Origin: Thermoplasmata archaeon
GTDB lineage: Archaea; Thermoplasmatota; Thermoplasmata; Thermoplasmatales; GCA-001856825
NCBI GenBank assembly: GCA_021797855.1
Contig: JAJZYX010000002.1
Coordinates: forward strand, 1 to 64,000
Direction: 5' to 3'
Length of the DNA: 64,000 nt
The position numbers were made by a program, and so were the translations under genes. Of the stretch, positions 1 to 64,000 are shown one piece after another. A model generated the notes under the pieces. The model saw only the letters and a program-made list of their open reading frames with translations. It searched no databases and was not told where the DNA came from. Numbering within the stretch: position 1 is the stretch's first letter; each line of letters starts with the position of its first letter.

Positions 1-500
1 ATAGAACGTTTTTTCAGATAGCATTTAAACCTCATTTATGAGATGGGTATAAATGTTGTTTATGTTTTAGTGTAATTAATAAAGTTAGGCTCATTTTTGC
101 AATATTCCTAAAACAAATTTAGGTATGATGCAATAACAGAAAATAAACAAGTCTCAGTATAACTCTTTCATTACGCCTATTTACTTAATGATAAATGTTC
201 AGACACCCAAGGCAGGTAATATTCTTTGGCTCAACCCTTCCACTCTGCAGACGATATTTACCAAGCTCATAGATAATTAGGAATCCGGTGGTATCGCCAA
301 ATTATTTATTCTTAGCTGAAAGCCTATTCATAATTAATGGGTCTACAACAGTTATTTACATCTTCAAATGTCACGATTCTTAGTGGAATCATCTTCAATA
401 GAGTCTGTTTAGATGGTTCATCGGAATATGGGACCGTCACGGATTTCATCTTCCCTAAATCATGGAAATTCATTTATTCGCCTAAATCTATAGAGCTTAT
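1..500. other. AT-rich non-coding left edge
   Basis: No open frame with convincing coding character is visible on either strand in these 500 bases, and I see no tRNA or rRNA motif. The right end carries the promoter region of the downstream permease: an A/T-rich TATA-like stretch near 469-478 lies about 27 bases before its ATG, which fits a leaderless archaeal transcript. The rest is unassigned. Confidence 0.6.
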
Positions 501-2114
501 ATGAGTTCAGTTGCCGCTTCGGCGAAAACTACTTACAAAAGGGACCTCAGTCTTTTCAACCTTGTGATGCTGAATTCAATGGGGATGATTGGATCCGGAT
601 GGCTTTTCGCCTCTCTCTACGCGGTGGGCTATGCCGGCCCTATCGGCGCTATCCTCTCCTGGATACTGGCAGGCATTTTCGTGGTGTTCATTGCAGTGAA
701 TTTTATGGAAGTTTCCACGATGTTCCCGTTGGCCGGAGGATCTACCCCATTGTCAGAACTGTCATTCGGTAAAATGACTGCCTTCCTTTCTGGATGGTCT
801 GCCTGGCTTTCGGACATTATGACCCCCACTATAGAAGCAATAGCCCTTGTTACCTATTCGTCATTCTATCTGAAGAATGTGATCAATCCCACGACAGGAG
901 CCCTAGAACCCCTCGGTTATCTTATAGCAGCTATTGCAATGCTCCTGATTTTCGTGGTGAACATGCAGAAAGTAAAGATCTTCGGGAATATTACTAGCGC
1001 TGTGATGATATGGAAATGGGCTGTTCCCATACTTGCGGGAGTTACGATATTAACTCTTACATTCAAGCCCACAAACTTCGTTGCCTTTGGGGCATTTACA
1101 GGTTCAGGCCCAAGTGGAATTTTTGATGCCCTCGTTCTCGGAGGAATCATATTCTCTTTCGAGGGCTTCAGGGCAGCAGTCAACATGGCGGGGGAATCAA
1201 AAAAGAAGGACTACGTTTGGAAATCAGTCATCATAGCAATAGTCGCTGTCATCCTTCTCTATCTTCTTCTACAGACGGCGTTCATTAGTGGAATAAACTG
1301 GGCTGCACAGGGTATTACGCCCGGAAACTGGGGAAACCTTAGCTCCGGCGGGTATATAACTGGTCCTTTTGCCCAAGAGGCAGCAGCCATAGGCCTTGGA
1401 TGGCTTGTGGTAATACTTCTAATAGATGCGATAATTTCTCCAGCAGGAGCTGGAATTTCCTACGCAGCTTATCCAGCCAGGATATTCCAGTCTATGGCAG
1501 AGTATGGCTACGCACCCAAGGTGTTTGCCAAACTTAATCCAAAGTCCCATATACCTTTAAATGCGCTGATACTGGGAACTATCCTTGGATTCGCATTCCT
1601 GTACGAATTTCCCTCGTGGCATCTGTTGGTAGGGATACTAACGTCCACGCTCGTAGTTGCATACGTCATAGGACCAGCTTCCATAAACATATTCAGGAAG
1701 ACCGCACCCGACAGGGAAAGACTATTCAGGCTCCCTGGGGCAAAGATTTTTGCCCCAATAGGGTTCATCGTTTCATTCTTCATCATATACTGGTCTACCT
1801 TCCCCCTAAGTCTTGAGGTATCTGTCGTCATTCTGGTCGGCTTGGTGATGTACTTCTACTTCCACCTGAAGAACGGATATTCAAAGAAACACGTCACCTC
1901 CGGCATGTGGCTAGTGGCAGGACTGATAATAATTCCAATAGAATCCTACATCGGACCAGCAAGCTACGGAGGGCTGAACATAGTGCCGTTTGGCTGGGAC
2001 TTCCTGATGATAGCGGTGACAGGCATCTTGCTGTACTTATGGAGCCAATATTCTGGCTGGAAGACAGAGTCACTTGAAAATTACTTGAAGGAGCAGGAGG
2101 CCGGAGTAGAGTAG
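501..2114 (+). CDS. APC-superfamily amino acid permease (12+ TM segments)
   Basis: A polytopic inner-membrane carrier expected to import an amino acid or related amine by proton or sodium coupling. The 537-residue protein is mostly hydrophobic. The first helix holds the glycine-rich motif SMGMIGSGWLF, the usual APC substrate/ion-binding break in TM1, and TM2 to TM12 follow at regular spacing. A cytoplasmic N-terminus of about 16 residues and a charged C-tail are present. The ATG at 501 starts the open frame and has an A/T-rich box about 27 bases upstream. A T-rich stretch follows the stop. Substrate cannot be assigned. The next gene is an unrelated hydrolase with its own promoter, so this is probably a single-gene transcript. 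Confidence 0.9.
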   Translation: MSSVAASAKTTYKRDLSLFNLVMLNSMGMIGSGWLFASLYAVGYAGPIGAILSWILAGIFVVFIAVNFMEVSTMFPLAGGSTPLSELSFGKMTAFLSGWSAWLSDIMTPTIEAIALVTYSSFYLKNVINPTTGALEPLGYLIAAIAMLLIFVVNMQKVKIFGNITSAVMIWKWAVPILAGVTILTLTFKPTNFVAFGAFTGSGPSGIFDALVLGGIIFSFEGFRAAVNMAGESKKKDYVWKSVIIAIVAVILLYLLLQTAFISGINWAAQGITPGNWGNLSSGGYITGPFAQEAAAIGLGWLVVILLIDAIISPAGAGISYAAYPARIFQSMAEYGYAPKVFAKLNPKSHIPLNALILGTILGFAFLYEFPSWHLLVGILTSTLVVAYVIGPASINIFRKTAPDRERLFRLPGAKIFAPIGFIVSFFIIYWSTFPLSLEVSVVILVGLVMYFYFHLKNGYSKKHVTSGMWLVAGLIIIPIESYIGPASYGGLNIVPFGWDFLMIAVTGILLYLWSQYSGWKTESLENYLKEQEAGVE

Positions 2115-2128
2115 GCTCCTTCCTCCGA

Positions 2129-2144
2129 TTTTTTTATTTTTTAT
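2129..2144 (+). terminator. Poly-T terminator after the permease
   Basis: Two T-runs broken by a single A directly follow the permease stop codon. This matches archaeal intrinsic termination, which needs a T-tract rather than a stable hairpin. No strong hairpin is seen in front of it. Confidence 0.5.
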
Positions 2145-2167
2145 TACTTTCTCATCTGTACGGCTGA

Positions 2168-2178
2168 AGATAAATACC
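2168..2178 (+). promoter_or_regulatory. TATA box of the fumarylacetoacetase-family gene
   Basis: The sequence agataaatacc is centred about 32 bases upstream of the ATG at 2205. This predicts a transcript with a leader of only a few bases. Confidence 0.5.
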
Positions 2179-2204
2179 TTGAAAGCACTTAGGCACCGAT
2201 TGCA

Positions 2205-3053
2205 ATGGAACTCCAACGGTTGAAGATCGGCAGGAGAGTAGTCTTGGTTGTCAGGGTAGATGGGAACTACGTATCGGTTGATGAGCTATTGAAAAAGGAT
2301 ATCGGGTCAGTAGAGATAGACAAAATCTTTGACCTAGAGGAGAAAATAAGGGGAGAAATTTCAAGAAAGAACTATTCTTATGTGAAATTTGACAACTTTA
2401 CCTATGCTCCCGCAGTTGGCTATCCTGGAAAGCTGATCTTTGTAGGCCTGAATTATCGCTCGCATGTAGCAGAAACAGAAAGGAAGATACCGGAGCATCC
2501 AGTGCTTTTCAGTAAATTCCCAAATGCCCTCGCAGGTCATTTGGAAAATATCACGATCCCAGAGGAAGGGCTCAAGGTAGACTATGAAGGGGAACTTGGA
2601 GTAATCATCGGAAAGCATGCGAAGGACGTAGGCGACGACTACGAGAAGTACATATTCGGTTACTTCATTGGCAACGATGTTTCTTCGAGGGAGCTTCAGT
2701 ACAGGACCTCTCAGTATCTTCTAGGGAAAACACTTGACGGCTTCTTCCCAAATGGACCTTCAATCGTTACAAGGGACGAAATTGCTGACCCCCAGAATCT
2801 TCGGATAAGGACAAAGGTCAACGGTTCAACTAGACAGGATTCAAGCACGGAGAATATGATCTTTCCCATAGGGAAGCTGGTTTCGTATATATCCCACTAC
2901 TTTACTCTGGAACCGGGGGACATCATATCGACGGGCACTCCGGAGGGAGTTATCATGGGAATGAAGGATAAGGAATCCGCCTGGCTTAAGAAGGGGGACG
3001 TTGTAGAAGTAAGCATAGAAGGCCTTGGGACGCTTAGGAATGCCTTTGTCTGA
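2205..3053 (+). CDS. Fumarylacetoacetate hydrolase (FAH) family protein
   Basis: A cytoplasmic, divalent-metal-dependent hydrolase, isomerase or decarboxylase of the FAH fold. Members act on 2-hydroxyhepta-2,4-diene-dioates, acylpyruvates or oxaloacetate, and the exact substrate is not readable here. The 282-residue protein has a short variable N-terminal domain (about residues 1-75) and then the catalytic fold. It begins with KLIFVGLNYRSH, continues with the metal-binding acidic cluster DYEGELGVIIG, and has FIGNDVSSRELQ, GKTLDGFFPNGP and a C-terminal STGTPEGV loop. All are standard in the family, and the length is normal. It is monocistronic: a TATA box lies upstream and the 5S rRNA gene starts 55 bases downstream. 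Confidence 0.85.
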   Translation: MELQRLKIGRRVVLVVRVDGNYVSVDELLKKDIGSVEIDKIFDLEEKIRGEISRKNYSYVKFDNFTYAPAVGYPGKLIFVGLNYRSHVAETERKIPEHPVLFSKFPNALAGHLENITIPEEGLKVDYEGELGVIIGKHAKDVGDDYEKYIFGYFIGNDVSSRELQYRTSQYLLGKTLDGFFPNGPSIVTRDEIADPQNLRIRTKVNGSTRQDSSTENMIFPIGKLVSYISHYFTLEPGDIISTGTPEGVIMGMKDKESAWLKKGDVVEVSIEGLGTLRNAFV

Positions 3054-3076
3054 GCAGAGGAAGGTGGACGAAGAAA

Positions 3077-3087
3077 GGATAAAATAG
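3077..3087 (+). promoter_or_regulatory. TATA box of the 5S rRNA gene
   Basis: The box ggataaaatag is centred about 26 bases before the predicted 5S start at 3108. This is the normal archaeal spacing and shows that the 5S gene has its own promoter. Confidence 0.55.
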
Positions 3088-3107
3088 TGCCTCCCAATTC
3101 CTAGGAG

Positions 3108-3230
3108 GTTGACGGCCATAGCGACGGGGAAACACCCGGTCTCATTCCGAACCCGAAGGTTAAGCCCGTCCGCGTTCCGCACGCGTACTGTGTTCCGCGA
3201 GGGCATGGGAAATGCGGTTCGCCGTCTCCA
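3108..3230 (+). rRNA. rrf: 5S ribosomal RNA
   Basis: Recognised from the conserved internal core: a block reading GGGGAAACACCCGG, then TTCCGAACCCGAAGGTTAAG, then the GTACTG / CCGCGAGGG / ATGGGAAATGCGG helix D-E region. The terminal helix pairs gacggc (3111-3116) with gccgtc (3221-3226). The length of about 123 nt matches Thermoplasma 5S. The exact ends are estimated by comparison with the remembered T. acidophilum sequence. No 16S or 23S gene lies next to it: an FAH-family gene is upstream and a HAD gene downstream. This agrees with the known unlinked rRNA genes of Thermoplasma. The gene has its own TATA box. Confidence 0.93.
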
Positions 3231-3241
3231 TCTCATGTCAA

Positions 3242-3251
3242 ATTCTTATAG
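3242..3251 (+). promoter_or_regulatory. TATA box before the HAD-radB operon
   Basis: The box attcttatag is centred 25 bases upstream of the ATG at 3272. This supports that ATG, rather than the more distant in-frame ATG at 3212 (inside the 5S gene), as the start of a leaderless message. Confidence 0.5.
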
Positions 3252-3271
3252 GAAGTAATTATGCCATACCA

Positions 3272-3889
3272 ATGCGACCGACGCTCATTGCTTTTGACGT
3301 TGACGGCGTTCTCCTGGCACCGAAGAGCAGCTGGAACACCATACACAACTACTTCGGCGTCAAAAACGACGAGTCACTTCGTGCATTCCTCAATGGGGAA
3401 ATAGATTATCAAGAGTTCATCGATAGGGACGTGAATCTCTGGATAGATAAGAGAGGGAAGATAACTAGAGAAGATTTTTCAGTAATAGCGGAAAAAATCA
3501 CTCCTAACCCGAACTTTGAGCACCTCAGTTCATTTTTAAAGACCTTCGACGGTGAAAAGATAGCCGTATCTGGAGGAATAGATGTCATAGTCTCAAAGGT
3601 TAAGGAATACTTCGAGCTTGACGAGGTATATTCCAACCGTCTCGTGTTCAGGGATGGCGTTCTCGTAGGTGGGAAGGCCGTGGTAAACCCCCACCAGAAG
3701 GGCCTTTTCCTCGAAAAATACAAGGGACATAGGGTTTCAGTAGGCGATTCGGAGTGGGACAAGGATATGTTCAGGAATTCTGATTATTCCATCCTCTTCA
3801 ACGCCGATTCAGATTTAGAATTTGTCGACTGCATCATCAGAGGGAATGATCTTAGAGATCTAGCCAATGTCCTCAAAGACCTGAAATGA
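3272..3889 (+). CDS. HAD-superfamily phosphatase (phosphoserine phosphatase-like)
   Basis: A soluble Mg-dependent phosphohydrolase of about 205 residues. The nucleophile motif I, AFDVDGV, sits at residues 7-13 (DxD with the first Asp as nucleophile). The helical cap follows at about 20-90, the motif II Ser/Thr region at AVSGG, and the motif III/IV acidic pair at VGDSEWDKDMF. The cap layout and the 'GDSEWD' motif resemble SerB-type enzymes, but a substrate is not provable. The start at 3272 is chosen because the protein then begins directly at the family core and has a TATA box 25 bases upstream; the in-frame ATG at 3212 lies in 5S rRNA. Its stop overlaps the radB start (ATGA), so the two are translationally coupled. 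Confidence 0.85.
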   Translation: MRPTLIAFDVDGVLLAPKSSWNTIHNYFGVKNDESLRAFLNGEIDYQEFIDRDVNLWIDKRGKITREDFSVIAEKITPNPNFEHLSSFLKTFDGEKIAVSGGIDVIVSKVKEYFELDEVYSNRLVFRDGVLVGGKAVVNPHQKGLFLEKYKGHRVSVGDSEWDKDMFRNSDYSILFNADSDLEFVDCIIRGNDLRDLANVLKDLK

Positions 3890-4554
3890 GCGGCAGAGTT
3901 TCCACGGGACTCAAGAGGCTTGACCAGTGTCTTGAAGGAGGATATGAAAGCGGGATTGTGACCGAAATTTATGGAGAACCTGGCTCAGGCAAGACCAACC
4001 TGGTCCTCTTTTCCTCGCTCTATTCCTCTCGGATGGGGAAGGTCATATTCATAGATACAGAGGGCGTTTCCACCGAACGGATATCGCAGATGGAAAGGAG
4101 CGATTCAGTACTTTCAAACATCAAATTCTTCCGGATAAGGAGCTACGAAGAACAGCTTGAGTCTGTTCCTAAGATTCTCAACCTTGTCAGATCGATGAAT
4201 GACGTCGTCCTTCTCGTATTCGACACAATAACAATCCACTACAGGGCTGAGAGGGAGATAAGGTCAGAACTGAGGAGAAAGACATCGAATACGCTCATAA
4301 CGCAAATTGAAATGCTCAACAACATCGCAGCCTCCAAGGACATTCCAGTGATCATTGTGAACCAGGTGTATATGGACAAGACAACAGGAGAAGTCCAGCC
4401 TGTAGGAGGGAGTGCGCTCTCTCACGCGGCAAAGGCCATATTCAAGATTCAGAAACTTAGTGGCGGAAAGAGGGAACTCGTGGTTGTGAAACACAGAAGC
4501 CTTCCTGAAGACTTGAAATGTTCTTTCTCCATCACAGACACCGGAATTGAATAG
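3886..4554 (+). CDS. radB: RadB, archaeal RecA-family recombination mediator
   Basis: A RadA paralogue that binds ATP and single-stranded DNA and helps homologous recombination. At 222 residues it is a bare RecA core without the N-terminal helix-hairpin-helix domain of RadA, as is usual for RadB. The Walker A motif GEPGSGKT is at residues 30-37, the Walker B-like strand LLVFDTITIHY near residues 108-118, and there is a conserved IPVIIVNQVY strand and the L2-like GGSALSHAAK segment. It overlaps the HAD gene upstream by four bases (ATGA) and is followed 32 bases later by fen, so replication/repair proteins are grouped here. Confidence 0.93.
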   Translation: MSGRVSTGLKRLDQCLEGGYESGIVTEIYGEPGSGKTNLVLFSSLYSSRMGKVIFIDTEGVSTERISQMERSDSVLSNIKFFRIRSYEEQLESVPKILNLVRSMNDVVLLVFDTITIHYRAEREIRSELRRKTSNTLITQIEMLNNIAASKDIPVIIVNQVYMDKTTGEVQPVGGSALSHAAKAIFKIQKLSGGKRELVVVKHRSLPEDLKCSFSITDTGIE

Positions 4555-4586
4555 GTTTTTTAGCTTGGTTTGATTATATAAATAGG

Positions 4587-5597
4587 ATGGGAGTCGACAT
4601 TTCATCTTTGCTTGAGTCGAATGAGGTTGACCTTAAGGCCATAAAGGGAAGAATGGTCGCGGTGGACGCATTCAACGTCATTTATCAGTTCCTAAGCAAC
4701 ATCAGGGAATATGACGGAAGCCCTTTGAAGGACAAACAGGGTAGGGTAACATCTCATCTTTCCGGCCTTTTTTACAGGAATGTCAGCCTTCTTGAGGAAG
4801 GTCTTATCCCAGTATACGTCTTTGACGGCAAACCGCCCGCACTAAAGGAGAAGACGATCAAGGAGAGAATAGCTCTGAAGGAGAAGGCGGAGGAGGAGTA
4901 CCGACTCTCTCTTGCGATGGGAGACTATGAGAAGGCAAAGAGCTTTGCCTCTAGGACTTCAAGATTGACCCAAGAAATGGTCACTGAATCTAAGGCACTT
5001 CTCAACTCGTTAGGTATCGCAGTAATAGACGCCCCATCTGAAGGAGAAGCAGAGGCCTCCTATATGTGCAGCATAGGGCTCGTATACTCTGCAGTATCTC
5101 AGGATTACGATTCAATCCTTTTTGGGTCACCGCGCCTGATTAGGAACCTGACTGTCACGGGAAAGAGGCGTTACGGAAGGACCGGCAGGGTGGTGGATGT
5201 CAAACCGGAAATGATATCCAGCGATGACGTACTGAGAAAACTTGGGATCACGAGGGAACAGCTTGTAGATATCGGGATCCTAGTGGGAACTGACTTCAAT
5301 GATGGTATAAAGGGGATCGGCCCGAAGAAAGCATTCCAGCTCATAAAAAAATACGGGTCAATCAAAAATGTCCCTAACATAAATGTAGAAAACTATGATG
5401 AAATTCGAGATATATTTCTCAATCCGACTGTGTCAAATCCAGGGAAGATTACTGCTCCGGAACTAAACGAGGACAATGTCAGGGAGATCCTTGTGGTGAA
5501 CCACGATTTCTCTGAAGAGAGGGTGACTTCCGCCCTGAGGAGGGCGAGGGAGGCACGGAAACAAGGGGTGCAGAGGAGCATTGACTCTTTCTTCTAA
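4587..5597 (+). CDS. fen: Flap endonuclease 1 (FEN1)
   Basis: A structure-specific 5'-nuclease that removes RNA-primed flaps during Okazaki fragment maturation and acts in base excision repair. The 336 residues are normal for the family. The invariant N-terminus MGVDIS places Gly2 at the active site. Metal ligands are visible as Asp27 (AVDAFN), the VFDGKPP Asp, the GEAEAS acidic pair, SQDYDS and VGTDFNDG, followed by the helix-hairpin-helix GIKGIGPKKAF. The last eight residues QRSIDSFF are a textbook PCNA-interacting peptide. The dTMP kinase gene overlaps its 3' end by 17 bases, inside the PIP-box codons. Confidence 0.97.
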   Translation: MGVDISSLLESNEVDLKAIKGRMVAVDAFNVIYQFLSNIREYDGSPLKDKQGRVTSHLSGLFYRNVSLLEEGLIPVYVFDGKPPALKEKTIKERIALKEKAEEEYRLSLAMGDYEKAKSFASRTSRLTQEMVTESKALLNSLGIAVIDAPSEGEAEASYMCSIGLVYSAVSQDYDSILFGSPRLIRNLTVTGKRRYGRTGRVVDVKPEMISSDDVLRKLGITREQLVDIGILVGTDFNDGIKGIGPKKAFQLIKKYGSIKNVPNINVENYDEIRDIFLNPTVSNPGKITAPELNEDNVREILVVNHDFSEERVTSALRRAREARKQGVQRSIDSFF

Positions 5598-6180
5598 CAT
5601 CTATCTTGCCATCGAGGGAATTGATGGGACTGGAAAGACATTTGTCGCAAGGCACATAGTCGAGAAATTCGGCTTCAAGCTCCTTCGAGAGCCCTCGCCC
5701 GGGAGGATAGGCTCGCTGATAAGCGAGACGAAATGGGACCCGGTCACTGACTTCTTTCTCTTCATGGCCGACAGGTCCGCGATGCTACGAGACCTTCAGA
5801 GGGACAGGAGAGTTGTTTCGGATCGGTCCCTCTATTCCAGCTACGCCTATCAGGGGTATCATCTCACTAAATATTTCGGAGGGGAGGACAACTACTTCAG
5901 ATTCTTCATGGAAGCTGCAAGGCTTCTTCCGGCCCTTCCGACTCACATCTTCGTGCTGTACTGCGACGTCGACATCGCTCTTGGAAGAGTGCGAGAAAGG
6001 GGTGCTCCGTCAAGGTTCGAAGAGCGCGACTACCTTGAAAGCGTTCAGAAACTGTACTTTGGCCTCAAGGGAAGGGTAGGGAATGTCAAATACATTGACA
6101 GCAATGGGACTCTAGACGAGCTGTACGGGGAAGTGGACAAGGAACTCACAGAGTTGTTACGACAGGTCCATCCTCCCTGA
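5581..6180 (+). CDS. tmk: Thymidylate kinase
   Basis: Phosphorylates dTMP to dTDP with ATP in the cytoplasm. The P-loop is GIDGTGKT near residues 13-20. The dTMP-binding DR motif is seen as SDRSLYSSYAYQG, followed by a LID-like arginine-rich segment RVRERGAPSRFEERDYLE. The length of 199 residues is normal. No ATG is available in frame before the P-loop, so the start is read as TTG at 5581, inside the last codons of fen; this makes the two genes translationally coupled. The 3' end overlaps the convergent map gene by 35 bases. Confidence 0.92.
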   Translation: MTLSSNIYLAIEGIDGTGKTFVARHIVEKFGFKLLREPSPGRIGSLISETKWDPVTDFFLFMADRSAMLRDLQRDRRVVSDRSLYSSYAYQGYHLTKYFGGEDNYFRFFMEAARLLPALPTHIFVLYCDVDIALGRVRERGAPSRFEERDYLESVQKLYFGLKGRVGNVKYIDSNGTLDELYGEVDKELTELLRQVHPP

Positions 6181-7009
6181 GGAATATTGAATGCTCGGTT
6201 TGCGAGACCATCTCCCCCTTGTTCTCTTTAAGAACGGGGTAAAAATATAAGAATTTCTTCTTTTGCGCCTCCCTGATGACTGAATCATAATTGCTTAAGA
6301 TTCTGGCCGCATCCCTCGTTGAGAATGGGAGTCCCCTTGAAACTTTGCGAAGATTCTTCATTGATTCATCAGAATCCTCCTTCAGGCATATCATAATGTT
6401 CCCGAATTCTAGACCTTTGACCTTCCCCTTTCCGGTGGTCGCGAAGGGCTCAATTGCAAATGTCATCCCCGGATATAGCTTGACTCTCGACCCGTCGTCG
6501 TAGTTAGGGAAGGATGTGCCGGCGTGAAGAACGTATTTCTCAATTGTGTGACCGGTCAGGTTATAAATGGGATTGAAGCCATATTTCTTTATAGTAGCCT
6601 CAATCTCTCTCCCGATTTCAGACGTCAAAACTCCAACCTTCACTTTTCTGATCGCATTTTCGACTGCTTCCTCTGAGGCCCTTATCAGGTTTGACCACTT
6701 ATTCGTAGTGACCTCCTTCGTAACGGCTGTATCGGCGAGGCAGCCGTTGATTTCTGCACCCAAGTCCAACTTCACCAGGTCACCCTGCTGGAATTTCGTG
6801 TCCGTGTCCGGGGCTGGAGTAAAATGAGCGGCTTCATTGTTGATGGAGAGGTTTACGGGGAATCCGATATTGGCTCCCTGACTTCTTATGAAATCTTCGA
6901 GGTAATCTGCAAGCTTCCTCAGTTCGAACCCCTCCTCGATCATCTTGTACCCTTCCTGCCTGGCCTTGGAAGCTATTTTCCCAGACTGAACATAATCATC
7001 GAATTCCAT
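6146..7009 (-). CDS. map: Methionine aminopeptidase, type II
   Basis: Removes the initiator methionine from nascent proteins. The 287-residue pita-bread fold shows all metal ligands: the Asp of KLDLGAEING, the Asp of CLADTAV, the His of LTGHTIEKY, the Glu of FAIEPFAT and the Glu of TEHSIFL. The substrate His lies in AAHFTPAP. The insert that distinguishes type II enzymes, as in other archaea, is present between the last His and Glu. It starts inside the 3' end of the YrdC-domain gene (14-base overlap), so the two form an operon. Its 3' end is convergent with tmk. Confidence 0.95.
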   Translation of the reverse strand: MEFDDYVQSGKIASKARQEGYKMIEEGFELRKLADYLEDFIRSQGANIGFPVNLSINNEAAHFTPAPDTDTKFQQGDLVKLDLGAEINGCLADTAVTKEVTTNKWSNLIRASEEAVENAIRKVKVGVLTSEIGREIEATIKKYGFNPIYNLTGHTIEKYVLHAGTSFPNYDDGSRVKLYPGMTFAIEPFATTGKGKVKGLEFGNIMICLKEDSDESMKNLRKVSRGLPFSTRDAARILSNYDSVIREAQKKKFLYFYPVLKENKGEMVSQTEHSIFLREDGPVVTTL

Positions 7010-59709: not shown

Positions 59710-60609
59710 ATGGAAAAAATAGTGGACGCAAATGATCTGGAAAGTATTCAAGAAAATTCACCATTTCTCATATTCATTCCTGATGAGATTCCAATCGCAA
59801 AACCAACCTACAGGGTTCCAGATGAGAAATGGGCTACCCTGAGATTTGAATGCTCTTTGGGAGGGGAGAGACTTAGGGTAAAAGAGTTCTTTCTTGATTG
59901 GTTCTATCCAGGGTTCCCGAAGAGTCTTATGGACTCCTTCATATCAACATATTCCGCAGTGGAAAGTTCCACGCTGAGAGACAGGGTAATCTTCTACGGG
60001 AAAAATTACAAGGGTAAGGAAGCCTCATCCTCGTTCTGCATGGGCACCCAAATTGAAATCGAAGGTGAGAGCAGGAAAAATGTTGTAAAGCTCAGTGAGA
60101 TGATGACTGCACCGTTCGTTGGTGAGAAATTCAGAAGGTACCCCTTTTTCAAGAGGTCGTTTTTCGCAAACGGAGGCAAACCGGAATGGTTTGAGGAGGC
60201 AAGGATCAGCAATCTCTCCTGGGGGGCCCTTGAAAGAGAGATATGTGGAGGCAGCCTTCTTTCGGATTCCCTAGGAATTTATAGGGATGCTGGTAGGATT
60301 GTTCAAATGATCCTTGTCCTTTCCGAAGATTACTACAAGCGTGCAGCCTGGGTTGACATTACAAACAAGGAAAGCAGACGGCCCCATCTGGTGTATGAGT
60401 TCAGGAAGGGTGGCAATTTTTTCGACGTATTCGAAGAAACCGATGTAGCCCTTGCATTCAGAGGGGACGCAGGACCCACCATAGCTAGGTCCGATTTGGG
60501 AAACTTCGTGGCTACTGTTTCTCTCACCCCTTTGTTCAAACTTCAAGATGCAAGGTCCACAGTGAAATCACTGATAGAAGGAGTCAGGGAATTAGAAACG
60601 TTTATCTGA
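59710..60609 (+). CDS. Unassigned cytoplasmic protein (299 aa)
   Basis: A soluble mixed alpha/beta protein that I do not recognise. It has conserved-looking acidic and aromatic stretches such as FFLDWFYPGFPKSLMDSF, GKPEWFEEARISNLSWGAL and ALAFRGDAGPTIARSDLGN. The size, the late Asp (GDAGPTIARSD) and the Gly-rich region recall nucleases of the NurA type, but the expected motifs cannot be matched with confidence. It starts at the ATG at 59710, 83 bases after tdh, and is followed 20 bases later by a CoA-binding-domain gene. Confidence 0.6.
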   Translation: MEKIVDANDLESIQENSPFLIFIPDEIPIAKPTYRVPDEKWATLRFECSLGGERLRVKEFFLDWFYPGFPKSLMDSFISTYSAVESSTLRDRVIFYGKNYKGKEASSSFCMGTQIEIEGESRKNVVKLSEMMTAPFVGEKFRRYPFFKRSFFANGGKPEWFEEARISNLSWGALEREICGGSLLSDSLGIYRDAGRIVQMILVLSEDYYKRAAWVDITNKESRRPHLVYEFRKGGNFFDVFEETDVALAFRGDAGPTIARSDLGNFVATVSLTPLFKLQDARSTVKSLIEGVRELETFI

Positions 60610-61453: not shown

Positions 61454-61881
61454 ATTCTTCTTAATTTTTATTATTTTATTTTCATAACTCATCCTCAAAT
61501 CTTGGAAAAGCTTTCCATTAATTTGGAAGTATGATTTCTAAATTCCCGAAGTTCTGAGATTCATGCCAACTGAGCCCCCTCTAACGATAATTGGTTAGCT
61601 GTAGCAGCAACATTGTAGAATTTCTCATACCCAAGAGCATAAGCTGCAGGTCTTTAAAAGTCACACCATTCATGCTTCCCCCTTTCTTAATGATTAAATA
61701 CCAGAGGTTATTCTAATTTGAAGTCAAATTTCGGCAATAGGACGGGAGATTTGTGAAAAAAGCGGTGCGTAAGGCCTGCTTTGCTGTAGTGTAAATTTTA
61801 ATCGAAATTCATTGGCAAATTTCAATCATTGTTTCGTTGCTTCAGCCGTCTACTTGGTGAAATTTGACCGGAGGTGTTTTG
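61454..61881. other. Non-coding region before the accessory unit
   Basis: About 430 bases with T-rich termination signals just after the HU gene (61454-61490), and no supportable longer gene. Towards the right end lie a TATA-like gtaaattttaat near 61790-61801 and a ggaggtg site at 61870-61876 ahead of the 42-residue frame, which should be the control region of the accessory unit. Confidence 0.5.
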
Positions 61882-62010
61882 ATGCAATCGGTAGCTAAAC
61901 GAGATAATTTGAGTGAAGGATGGAAAGATGCGTTCGGAAAAATTCGTGAAGTCATAAGTTTGCTTGTGTTTTTTTGGTTGTTTTTAGTCGCAATGAAGGA
62001 GGGGTTTTGA
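61882..62010 (+). CDS. Small single-TM protein (42 aa)
   Basis: A short frame beginning MQSVAKRDNLSEGWKDAFGK and continuing into one membrane helix rich in Val, Leu, Phe and Trp, then AMKEGF. The ATG is preceded by GGAGGTG with six bases spacing, an excellent Shine-Dalgarno site. Its stop is four bases before the ATG of the 185-residue gene, whose own aaggagggg site lies inside the last codons of this one. No family is recognised. The basic N-terminus and single helix suggest a membrane anchor or pilot peptide for the proteins behind it. Confidence 0.55.
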   Translation: MQSVAKRDNLSEGWKDAFGKIREVISLLVFFWLFLVAMKEGF

Positions 62011-62014
62011 TCCT

Positions 62015-62572
62015 ATGGGCAAGTACTGGAAAATATTTGTGAAGGACAGAGACAATCTACGCATCGTGCTCAACAGCCTACTGATGAATCGGGAAGCGGA
62101 ACTCATTATAAGCAAAGTGGAAGGATTGTCTGTCCTTGTCGAACAAGGCGTGACCACTGATGAAATCGTTCGGTTCATCAGAGACGAATTCGGGAACTGG
62201 GTTGAGAACTGCTCGATGACATTCTCTTGGAGGGAAAACGTCTTCTTTTTCAGTAGTCCAAAGTTCATATTCGACTCTCCATTTCCCTTTCTGGTTGAGA
62301 CCTCTCTAGTCCTTGCGGAAGGGGATAGGATTCATGTGAAGACCGAGAGGTATCGTACTTTCAATCCAATAATGAATAGAAAATTGGGATCAAAGAAGGG
62401 TAAGATTCTGTACCGGATGAGGTTGTATACGCCAATTTTGCTCCGTGATTACTCCAATAGGGACGGGAGACAATCCCTGACCTTCAAGGGAAGATTCCCT
62501 CTCATATTGACGAGCTTTGAATTGTCTTCCATGATAAACGGAAGTGTTGCAAATGGACTACTGGCCATATGA
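62015..62572 (+). CDS. Unassigned 185-residue protein, partner of the HerA-like ATPase
   Basis: A soluble protein with a charged first half (FVKDRDNLRIVLNSLLMNRE, helical) and a beta-rich second half (FFFSSPKFIFDSPFPFLVET and ILYRMRLYTPILLRDYSNRD). There is no membrane segment and no motif that I know. A strong site aaggagggg lies directly upstream with normal spacing. Its last 20 bases overlap the start of the HerA-like gene, so the two proteins are made together. It might be an adaptor, regulator or nuclease subunit; none of this is shown by the sequence. Confidence 0.6.
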   Translation: MGKYWKIFVKDRDNLRIVLNSLLMNREAELIISKVEGLSVLVEQGVTTDEIVRFIRDEFGNWVENCSMTFSWRENVFFFSSPKFIFDSPFPFLVETSLVLAEGDRIHVKTERYRTFNPIMNRKLGSKKGKILYRMRLYTPILLRDYSNRDGRQSLTFKGRFPLILTSFELSSMINGSVANGLLAI

Positions 62573-64000
62573 ATCCGGACTCTTGTTCCCGCTGAGTCAG
62601 AAGAGGATCTACTTCCCTAGGGAGTTTCTCGAGAATCACTCCCTCGTCTTGGGGAAGACTGGGACGGGAAAATCCAATCTGCTCGTCCAACTGATCAGAC
62701 TGTACGAGGGAGAGGGTAAGACCGTTGTTGTTTTTGATCCCCACGGAGAGCTGTGGAAATACGGGAACCAATCTTCCTCCATTATCACCCTATCTCCTGT
62801 CGCTGGGGAAGAAACAGGATATCTCAAATTCAACATGATGTCAGTACTACCGTACCACAACGAAAAGGAACGGCTGATAAACGAGGAATTCGTCGTACAG
62901 ACACTCAAGGACATTTTCTCAAGTGAGTCGACGTTCTCCGTAGGAACGTGGGGACCCAGGATCGAGCTTGTTTTCACTGTTCTTACACGCCTACTGCTAA
63001 AGTACAAAATCAATCCCACGCTTCAGGATCTGACTGATCTTCTCCTTAACTATTACAAAAGGAAGGATTTTTCATCATCACTCAACCCTGAAGAGAAGAG
63101 TCAATTTTTCTCGATATTTAGCCAGGGCTATGATTTCATATCTTCGACCGTGAATAAGCTGCTTCCTCTGGTCTCAAATGAAGTCTCAAAGAAGCTTTTC
63201 TCTTCAAAGGAGGACTTCTTTGACATATCGAAATTGAGGAATACCCTCTACATTGAGCTGTCCGGAGAATATTCTCCTCCATCACTGTCTAGACCCTTTG
63301 CAATAATGCTTCTCTACAAGATATGGAACAACGTAGTGCTTAGAAGGATGAAGGATGTGGTGCTTGTGATGGACGAGTTCCAGACCATGTCACCGCACAT
63401 ATCTCAGAGAGTGGTCACTGAAGGCAGAAAATTTTCCCTGTGGGCAATCATGGCAACTCAGTCTCTTTCTAGCTTGGACCCTACCCTAGCTTCTACGATC
63501 AGGACTAATGTACACAACTTCTTCCTCTTCCAGATGTCAAACGAGGACCTTGTCATGTTCAGGCACTACGGCAAACCCCTAATGAATCCAGACTTTCACC
63601 ATTTTACCTGTCTCGTCCCCCGCTCCGGGGGGATTTTTTCTGGAATCTCTAGGCTTGCAACTCCAACGAGGGAATTTTCAGTGGCAACGGAGTTTTACGA
63701 CTTCGACCATACAGAATTTCTTCCTGACTGGGAGTTCCCCGAGACCATGGACCCCGTTCACCTTAGTCACCTTGTTTCCCTGGGACTCGCCACGGTCAAG
63801 GATGGAAACATACGTCTTGAAAGGGAATATTTTGAAAAGATAGGCTGCAGACGGAAGAGAGGCAACGAATCCATCTACCACAGATACCTTATTTCCAGGA
63901 CATATTTCTTCTTCAAGGGGAAGGGGTACGAAGTATATGAGGGACTGGAATTCAACGGACATAGGCCAGACCTGGTTCTAATCGCCAATGGAGAGAGAAT
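62553..64000 (+). CDS. HerA/VirD4-like ATPase with possible C-terminal nuclease (partial)
   Basis: An open frame running off the right edge; at least 482 residues are visible. It is a DNA-translocase type ATPase: Walker A GKTGTGKS at residues 34-41, FDPHGELW (the DPHGE signature of the HerA/DUF87 group), Walker B VVLVMDEFQTM with Asp274-Glu275, a sensor stretch AIMATQSLSSLDP and TNVHNFFLFQMSNED. Residues about 395-450 look like a winged helix. The end, RTYFFFKGKGYEVYEG with HRPDLVLIANGER, has the spacing of the first half of a PD-(D/E)XK nuclease core; the Glu-x-Lys part would be beyond the edge. The start ATG overlaps the 185-residue gene by 20 bases and has a ggaagtg site. Confidence 0.85.
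   Translation, partial: MDYWPYESGLLFPLSQKRIYFPREFLENHSLVLGKTGTGKSNLLVQLIRLYEGEGKTVVVFDPHGELWKYGNQSSSIITLSPVAGEETGYLKFNMMSVLPYHNEKERLINEEFVVQTLKDIFSSESTFSVGTWGPRIELVFTVLTRLLLKYKINPTLQDLTDLLLNYYKRKDFSSSLNPEEKSQFFSIFSQGYDFISSTVNKLLPLVSNEVSKKLFSSKEDFFDISKLRNTLYIELSGEYSPPSLSRPFAIMLLYKIWNNVVLRRMKDVVLVMDEFQTMSPHISQRVVTEGRKFSLWAIMATQSLSSLDPTLASTIRTNVHNFFLFQMSNEDLVMFRHYGKPLMNPDFHHFTCLVPRSGGIFSGISRLATPTREFSVATEFYDFDHTEFLPDWEFPETMDPVHLSHLVSLGLATVKDGNIRLEREYFEKIGCRRKRGNESIYHRYLISRTYFFFKGKGYEVYEGLEFNGHRPDLVLIANGER

Follow-up and report, generated by a model that had tools for sequence, protein, structure and literature searches.

What does a DNA motor that seems to carry its own nuclease do on the chromosome of an archaeon? 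The question arises at the right end of a 64,000-nucleotide (nt) stretch from the genome of an acid-loving Thermoplasmatales archaeon (assembly GCA_021797855.1, contig JAJZYX010000002.1, positions 1 to 64,000; hereafter, the window), where three plus-strand open reading frames (ORFs) encode a short peptide, a 185-amino-acid (aa) protein and an ATPase. It touches a broader problem, the preparation of DNA for transfer in archaea: according to published work, neither the genomes nor the conjugative plasmids of archaea are known to encode a homologue of a relaxase (PMC9905601; PMC12857230), and HerA-NurA has been proposed to fill this role instead (PMC9905601). Here we describe the ATPase as a conserved chromosomal protein in which a motor resembling coupling proteins of the VirD4/TrwB type is joined to a predicted nuclease that is probably related to MobC. 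The explanation that we favour, with somewhat better than even confidence, is that this coupling motor and its MobC-like DNA-processing domain serve a chromosomal DNA-exchange machine similar to Ced and Ted.

The motor carries the Walker A motif GKTGTGKS and exceeds the curated cut-offs of both Pfam DUF87 and TrwB_AAD_bind, confirming its assignment to the HerA/VirD4-type motors in an earlier, sequence-only reading of the window. The TrwB_AAD_bind match spans nearly the whole domain model, PF10412 (the coupling-protein-type nucleotide-binding domain) scores 30.5-31.1 bits against a cut-off of 20.5, and all 21 diverse homologues of the ATPase match both DUF87 and TrwB_AAD_bind at an expectation value (E) <= 0.001. 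Among solved structures, the best sequence match is TrwB of R388 (E 2.3e-4). The CedD, HerA, VirB4 and TraD models all score far under their cut-offs, including NCBIfam CedD (8.6e-8), the HerA family model NF040819 (22.7 bits against 970) and the anti-phage HerA/MADS model NF042943 (23 bits against 800). The Pfam coupling-protein domains and the best match to TrwB place the ATPase, as judged by sequence, as a coupling-protein-like (VirD4/TrwB type) member of the HerA-FtsK superfamily. The AlphaFold model of the whole protein, built on an alignment of 7 close sequences, is poor (mean predicted local distance difference test score, pLDDT, 38.4), and only its C-terminal domain taken alone is usable.

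The window edge falls within the ATPase gene, as the sequence-only reading had noted; the contig (C7) runs 25 kb further to the right and supplies the full protein. Its C-terminal part is best described, from sequence and modelling, as a winged-helix region followed by a PD-(D/E)XK nuclease with an E-x-E site, the active-site series being P-D-x12-E-x-E. In the alignment of 45 homologues, H, D and E-x-E are invariant, and P (41 of 45), S (41), D (44), R (39) and K (41) are nearly so. The canonical E-x-K lysine occurs in none of the 45; K501, on the helix after E-x-E and kept in 41 homologues, is a candidate for the missing residue. The PD-(D/E)XK-like ending proposed earlier is thus supported in fold and motifs, and its expected Glu-x-Lys is replaced throughout by E-x-E. 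The modelled C-terminal domain (residues 441-531) has the order alpha-beta-beta-beta-alpha-beta with pLDDT 59-82, and its top Foldseek matches in PDB are PD-(D/E)XK nucleases, namely R2 endonuclease, Bax1, Hjc, AF1548, SfsA and McrC; the lowest E is 8.6e-3, and the probability of several of these matches is close to 1. When members were scanned singly, Pfam gave only weak matches to MTES_1575 (0.002) and, in 3 of 38 nuclease domains, to CoiA_nuc (best 0.015); a sequence search of PDB with the domain found no match, and a tblastn search of plasmids with the domain of one homologue found nothing convincing. The winged-helix region shows H-E-E-H secondary structure, in a low-confidence part of the model; in class-level relatives, a clearer winged helix with an LTPRG-type wing motif precedes the nuclease.

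Among the families compared, MobC, the MOBC relaxase, appears to be the nearest relative of this nuclease, by a link that is weak but specific, with membership unproven. MobC of a CloDF13-like plasmid, typed MOBC, has the same motif series (PHRL - PD - FEVER); the CloDF13 record itself carries no annotated mobC, and a 97% identical plasmid region supplied the protein. Aligned by hhalign with one MobC, the nuclease domain reached a probability of only 12%, and with a profile of six diverse MobC proteins a score of 36.3 (probability 67%, E 5.2e-5), with the motifs in register over 88 columns at ~13% identity; adding the class-level relatives raised the probability to 75%. The two other PD-(D/E)XK families serving as controls scored 14.1 (Hjc) and 25.7 (SfsA), 35 unrelated families <=18.5 and 100 column shuffles <=20.2. 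A collinear profile alignment with the winged helix of MobC had a probability of 29%. A winged helix N-terminal to the nuclease has been described in the MOBC relaxase TraX, where mutagenesis reportedly confirms a site of the restriction-nuclease type (PMC12857230). In plasmids of the CloDF13 type, the coupling protein MobB is encoded beside MobC and participates in relaxation (PMC7431656); there, a coupling ATPase and a winged-helix/PD-(D/E)XK E-x-E nuclease act together, as would the motor and nuclease of the present protein, which shares the order H - PD - E-x-E and has a predicted winged helix. Unlike these adjacent genes of bacterial plasmids, the two parts are fused here in one archaeal, chromosomal protein. 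We consider it probable that the nuclease is related to MobC and works like it.

An apparatus that such an enzyme could serve is encoded elsewhere on the same chromosome, in an operon resembling type IV secretion systems (T4SS; Table 1). Its 114-aa pilin (Pfam T4SS_pilin 2.8e-4, below cut-off) begins like a signal peptide and has another two hydrophobic segments. The other products are a multi-membrane protein of 343 aa, a protein of 194 aa whose membrane helices lie close to the N-terminus, a VirB4/HerA ATPase of 524 aa and a second ATPase, of the HerA type, of 695 aa. The operon is syntenic within the family. Across the order, 9 of 12 loci match the pilin, channel and VirB4 profiles side by side, and in 2 more, pilin and VirB4 matches flank a seven-helix protein; loci with the triad include Thermoplasma-like, Ferroplasma-like and Aciduliprofundum-like genomes. 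In one Aciduliprofundum-like genome (G006, L213 9825-13998), four consecutive proteins of 320-405 aa match the small pilin profile beside the channel and VirB4. The combination that characterises Ced and Ted of Sulfolobales and Thermoproteales, a chromosomal VirB2-like pilin, VirB6-like channel and VirB4-like ATPase, vertically inherited (PMC9905601, PMC11868833), is found in this operon and not among the genes of the window. Ced and Ted differ in having neither a VirD4-nuclease fusion nor a recognised relaxase; the present components are divergent and are likened to them by the kinds of protein that they encode together.

In favour of a possible link between motor and apparatus, the operon of this genome holds a pilin, a channel, VirB4 and a second ATPase, the triad recurs across the order, and proteins of the same architecture adjoin PrgI/VirB4 genes in two class-level relatives (L148, L150). 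In both of these, a VirB4 of 867-875 aa (AAA_10, TraG P-loop, weak PrgI-like start) lies near the fusion protein on the same strand, and L148 additionally has a multi-membrane VirB6-like protein nearby. Such longer fusions, in which an additional N-terminal stretch precedes the ATPase, winged helix and same nuclease, measure 1030-1160 aa in other Thermoplasmata (f15), and their nuclease region aligns with the order profile at 97% probability. Class-level relatives with an N-terminal domain and the same arrangement (L145, L146, L147, L148, L150 and L152) range from 849 to 1157 aa. In genus g16 (L049 7970-9634, L092 2581-4236), a gene for a TadC/FlaJ-like pilus membrane protein lies directly upstream of the ATPase, at 39-40 nt, which as a link to pili is suggestive only.

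About two thirds of Thermoplasmatales genomes have a homologue of the ATPase. At E <= 1e-3, the full protein matches 82 of the order's 117 genomes, among which four are reached only at the 1e-4 level, that of general HerA-like ATPases; the nuclease-domain profile matches 66. Sequence identity of the ATPase is 72-77% within the genus, 46-57% within the family and ~25-37% elsewhere. In the order-wide search, the ATPase was lacking in family f3 and in genera g15, g18 and g27 of family f6, and some of the genomes without it are complete. A report on Cuniculiplasma from 2016 noted T4SS components and, at a separate locus, a 'TraG/TraD/VirD4 family ATPase', arCOG04816 (CSP5_0791; PMC5155288), whose position matches the homologue in genome G047 and which is very probably of the same family. 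In the parts of that report available to us, the ATPase and the T4SS components are named in passing, and the nuclease domain, the similarity to MobC and the leader RNA are not discussed. Ferroplasma-like genomes lack the ATPase, in parallel with the absence of pili genes reported for Ferroplasma in a study of acid-mine relatives whose pili were seen by cryo-electron microscopy to reach other cells (PMC3750248); this parallel is suggestive only. A coincident loss of the ATPase and the T4SS channel was considered and dropped, as the triad is present in Ferroplasma-like genomes.

Within the family, the 185-aa gene and the ATPase gene form a conserved unit, placed between core genes and syntenic in 13 of 13 loci examined, with an overlap of 8-38 nt. 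The ratio of nonsynonymous to synonymous substitution rates (dN/dS) is 0.07-0.15 for the pair in two close species pairs, and 0.11-0.15 for the 185-aa protein, so that purifying selection, together with the synteny, shows the set not to be a chance arrangement. Outside the family, the pair dissolves in part, and the ATPase has a different small upstream partner or none. Overlapping small upstream genes encode 218-221 aa in family f2 and 206-208 aa in the Thermoplasma-like genus; homology of the 185-aa protein with those of f2 was not supported by hhalign (best score 27.0 against controls of up to 23), nor was homology with the Thermoplasma-like proteins or with the N-terminal domains of the class-level relatives. 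The 185-aa protein has no match above cut-off in Pfam, NCBIfam, PHROGs or PADLOC and only chance-level matches to PDB sequences. Its model (mean pLDDT 62.6) has no membrane helix; the first 70 residues (pLDDT 73-87) fold as beta-alpha-beta-beta-alpha-beta, for which Foldseek returned generic ferredoxin-like folds only, and the remainder is weak. From sequence and model, we describe it as a conserved overlapping partner with a predicted ferredoxin-like N-terminal domain and of no known family.

The short ORF was earlier taken for a membrane peptide. That identity is rejected, as the ORF is hydrophobic in this genome only, its positional counterparts in eight sister species, of 46-50 aa, encode non-membrane products, and ratios of nonsynonymous to synonymous differences (pN/pS) of 1.1 and 1.6 in two close pairs indicate no amino-acid constraint. 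Place and length (42-50 aa) are kept in the genus, and sequence is not, and the ORF may be a leader peptide or a coupling ORF.

Upstream of it, conserved blocks come after a TATA-like box, and the 5' block pairs with the stretch immediately before the first Shine-Dalgarno site (helix P1). P1 averages 11.2 bp when the arms come from the same genome and 6.6 bp with the arms of other genera, and the observed sum was reached by none of 5000 permutations and none of 2000 letter shuffles. In the leader alignment, 92.8% of cells are paired, 9 of 19 pairs are changed on both sides, and the covariation score is 0.333 against 0.170 in shuffles, none of 500 reaching it; in slid controls, paired cells drop to 33-46%. 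The structure was drawn from the same sequences as were tested, which limits the independence of this test, and sequences folded singly do only mildly better than shuffled ones (z -0.1 to -3.5). A covariance model found one copy per genome, at this operon only, in 12 genomes; Rfam had no match. In genomes of genus g2, an analogous helix immediately precedes the gene homologous to that of the 185-aa protein. A regulator motif shared between the ATPase and T4SS operons was sought and rejected, the conserved upstream block being unique to the former. A partial match to the leader lies near an ATPase C-terminal fragment with a stop codon (G032:C104:12998-13405), possibly a decayed operon or an assembly fault. 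Ending as it does at the Shine-Dalgarno site, the leader probably controls translation; alternatively, it could be an inverted repeat near a relaxase-like gene, in the manner of an origin of transfer (oriT).

All three ORFs and their Shine-Dalgarno sites (ggaggtg 61870, aaggagggg 61996, ggaagtg 62540) were found as the sequence-only reading had them. Its claim of three overlapping genes stands for the last two; here, 4 nt separate the short ORF from the 185-aa gene, and in most sister species the stop of the former overlaps the start of the latter as TGATG. A histone-like gene and a CoA-binding protein lie to the left of the unit, and core genes including queD and queC, named from their sequences, to the right of the ATPase. 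A 299-aa protein encoded to the left (Table 1) has no Pfam or NCBIfam match and is found in 54 of the 117 genomes of the order. Inspection of neighbouring genes on the contig revealed no integrase, tRNA, toxin or virus gene near the unit.

Table 1. Features of the locus and of the separate T4SS-like operon. Positions without prefix refer to the window; C7 is the contig that contains it.
Feature	Position	Strand	Details
Short upstream ORF	61882..62010	+	42 aa from ATG 61882; 48 aa from TTG at 61864; stop 62010
185-aa partner ORF	62015..62572	+	20 nt overlap with ATPase gene
Putative coupling ATPase ORF	62553..64000 in window; stop at C7:64202	+	ATG 62553; 549 aa
Predicted winged-helix region, approximate	63744..63857	+	ATPase residues ~398-435; N-terminal to nuclease
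Predicted MobC-like PD-(D/E)XK domain, start	63873..64000	+	residues ~441-531; H443 codon 63879; P472-D473 codons 63966-63971
Nuclease residues outside the window	C7:64008-64055	+	E486-x-E488, D491, K501
Structured leader RNA	61718..61884	+	P1 arms 61723-61733 and 61858-61868; hairpin P3 61762-61779
299-aa protein, no assigned function, possible accessory gene	59710..60609	+	near ATPase here; adjoins ATPase in 15 loci of family f6
T4SS-like operon	L071 (G000:C13) 326-6555	minus	pilin, channel, 194-aa membrane protein, VirB4, second ATPase; then GINS-like gene; beside topoisomerase VI genes

Domain architecture, conservation, synteny, the second operon and RNA covariation are the observations from which we infer a route of DNA through this system, from nicking and coupling to the direction of transfer, the role of the partner and regulation. 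A chromosomal VirD4/TrwB-type coupling protein would carry its own winged helix and MobC-like E-x-E nuclease; the nuclease would nick or trim double-stranded DNA, and the motor would feed the product to the cell's own apparatus of pilin, VirB6/CedA-like channel and VirB4. The 185-aa partner would probably aid docking or ring assembly, replacing the missing N-terminal domain, and the leader RNA would probably set translation.

Several points weigh against this proposal. By inspection, ~33 non-hydrophobic residues precede Walker A, and the N-terminal transmembrane domain is absent; such a domain is common to most coupling proteins though not to all (PMC7431656), and its absence is not decisive. 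In this family, the gene lies outside the T4SS operon, and Ferroplasma-like and Aciduliprofundum-like genomes keep the triad without this ATPase, which is therefore not essential to the T4SS machine. The usual E-x-K lysine is replaced by E-x-E, and catalysis is predicted and unproven. Pfam Replic_Relax (PF13814) has no match above cut-off in the genome of the window or in the members, and scores only 14 bits in one homologue. Unlike for CloDF13 MobB-MobC, no oriT or nic site is known.

The combination of a motor with a nuclease, a HerA-type core (DUF87) and a chromosomal, vertically inherited gene would also fit an enzyme that resects DNA-break ends, as HerA-NurA does, and takes no part in transfer. 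This is unlikely: the nuclease is MobC-like and NurA has an RNase-H fold, separate HerA-sized ORFs of ~485-500 aa are also matched in genomes of the order, TrwB_AAD_bind matches nearly end to end, and the ATPase stands beside VirB4 in two relatives and is missing from some complete genomes. The HerA family model is far from matched, and it is core genes and the 185-aa partner, not NurA, that adjoin the ATPase. Similarly improbable is an import-side enzyme that trims or pulls in DNA in recipients like CedB/CedD of the Sulfolobales, its nuclease having a role like that of CoiA. Coupling proteins and MobC work on the donor side, Ced does without VirD4, and VirB4 of the separate operon is the better match for a counterpart of CedB/CedD, although Ced is an importer (PMC11868833) and the sub-threshold matches to CedD and CoiA_nuc point in that direction.

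The absence of the E-x-K lysine from every homologue raises a further alternative, that the C-terminal domain with its E-x-E is non-catalytic and binds DNA to target the motor. We give it a low probability, because the invariant D and E-x-E and the near-invariant K argue for kept chemistry, MobC itself is E-x-E, and the TraX mutagenesis speaks for such a site. Very unlikely, finally, is an anti-virus defence motor or a mobile-element remnant, in line with the undescribed mobile or defence module that the sequence-only reading inferred. Of the two findings that this reading named as fatal to its module, the lack of Glu-x-Lys is borne out, and a scattering of the genes is not seen within the family but is seen in part outside it. 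PADLOC mad8 (MADS) and HerA models do match the ATPase part (best 1.8e-17), only that part, and motor-nuclease fusions occur in defence; yet the gene keeps the same syntenic place in all family loci examined and occurs in the majority of the order's genomes, where defence genes would be patchy, and has no partner defence genes, integrase or tRNA nearby. IMG/VR viral contigs gave no match beyond generic HerA-like ATPases, and neither an adjoining integrase or tRNA nor a patchy distribution marks the unit as mobile, att-like repeats not having been searched for.

A bolder claim, to which we give a rather tentative credence, is that Thermoplasmatota have a native, vertically inherited, conjugation-like chromosomal DNA system in which coupling protein and MOBC-type relaxase are one polypeptide, the first archaeal relaxase-like enzyme, switched in the I-plasma family by a new leader RNA. 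The conserved fusion of a coupling ATPase with a MobC-like nuclease would provide a concrete, testable enzyme in an order with a cultivable member, Thermoplasma acidophilum, and it may represent the step of DNA cutting that all known DNA-exchange systems of archaea have lacked. If the proposal is true, chromosomal T4SS-like DNA exchange extends well beyond the former Crenarchaeota.

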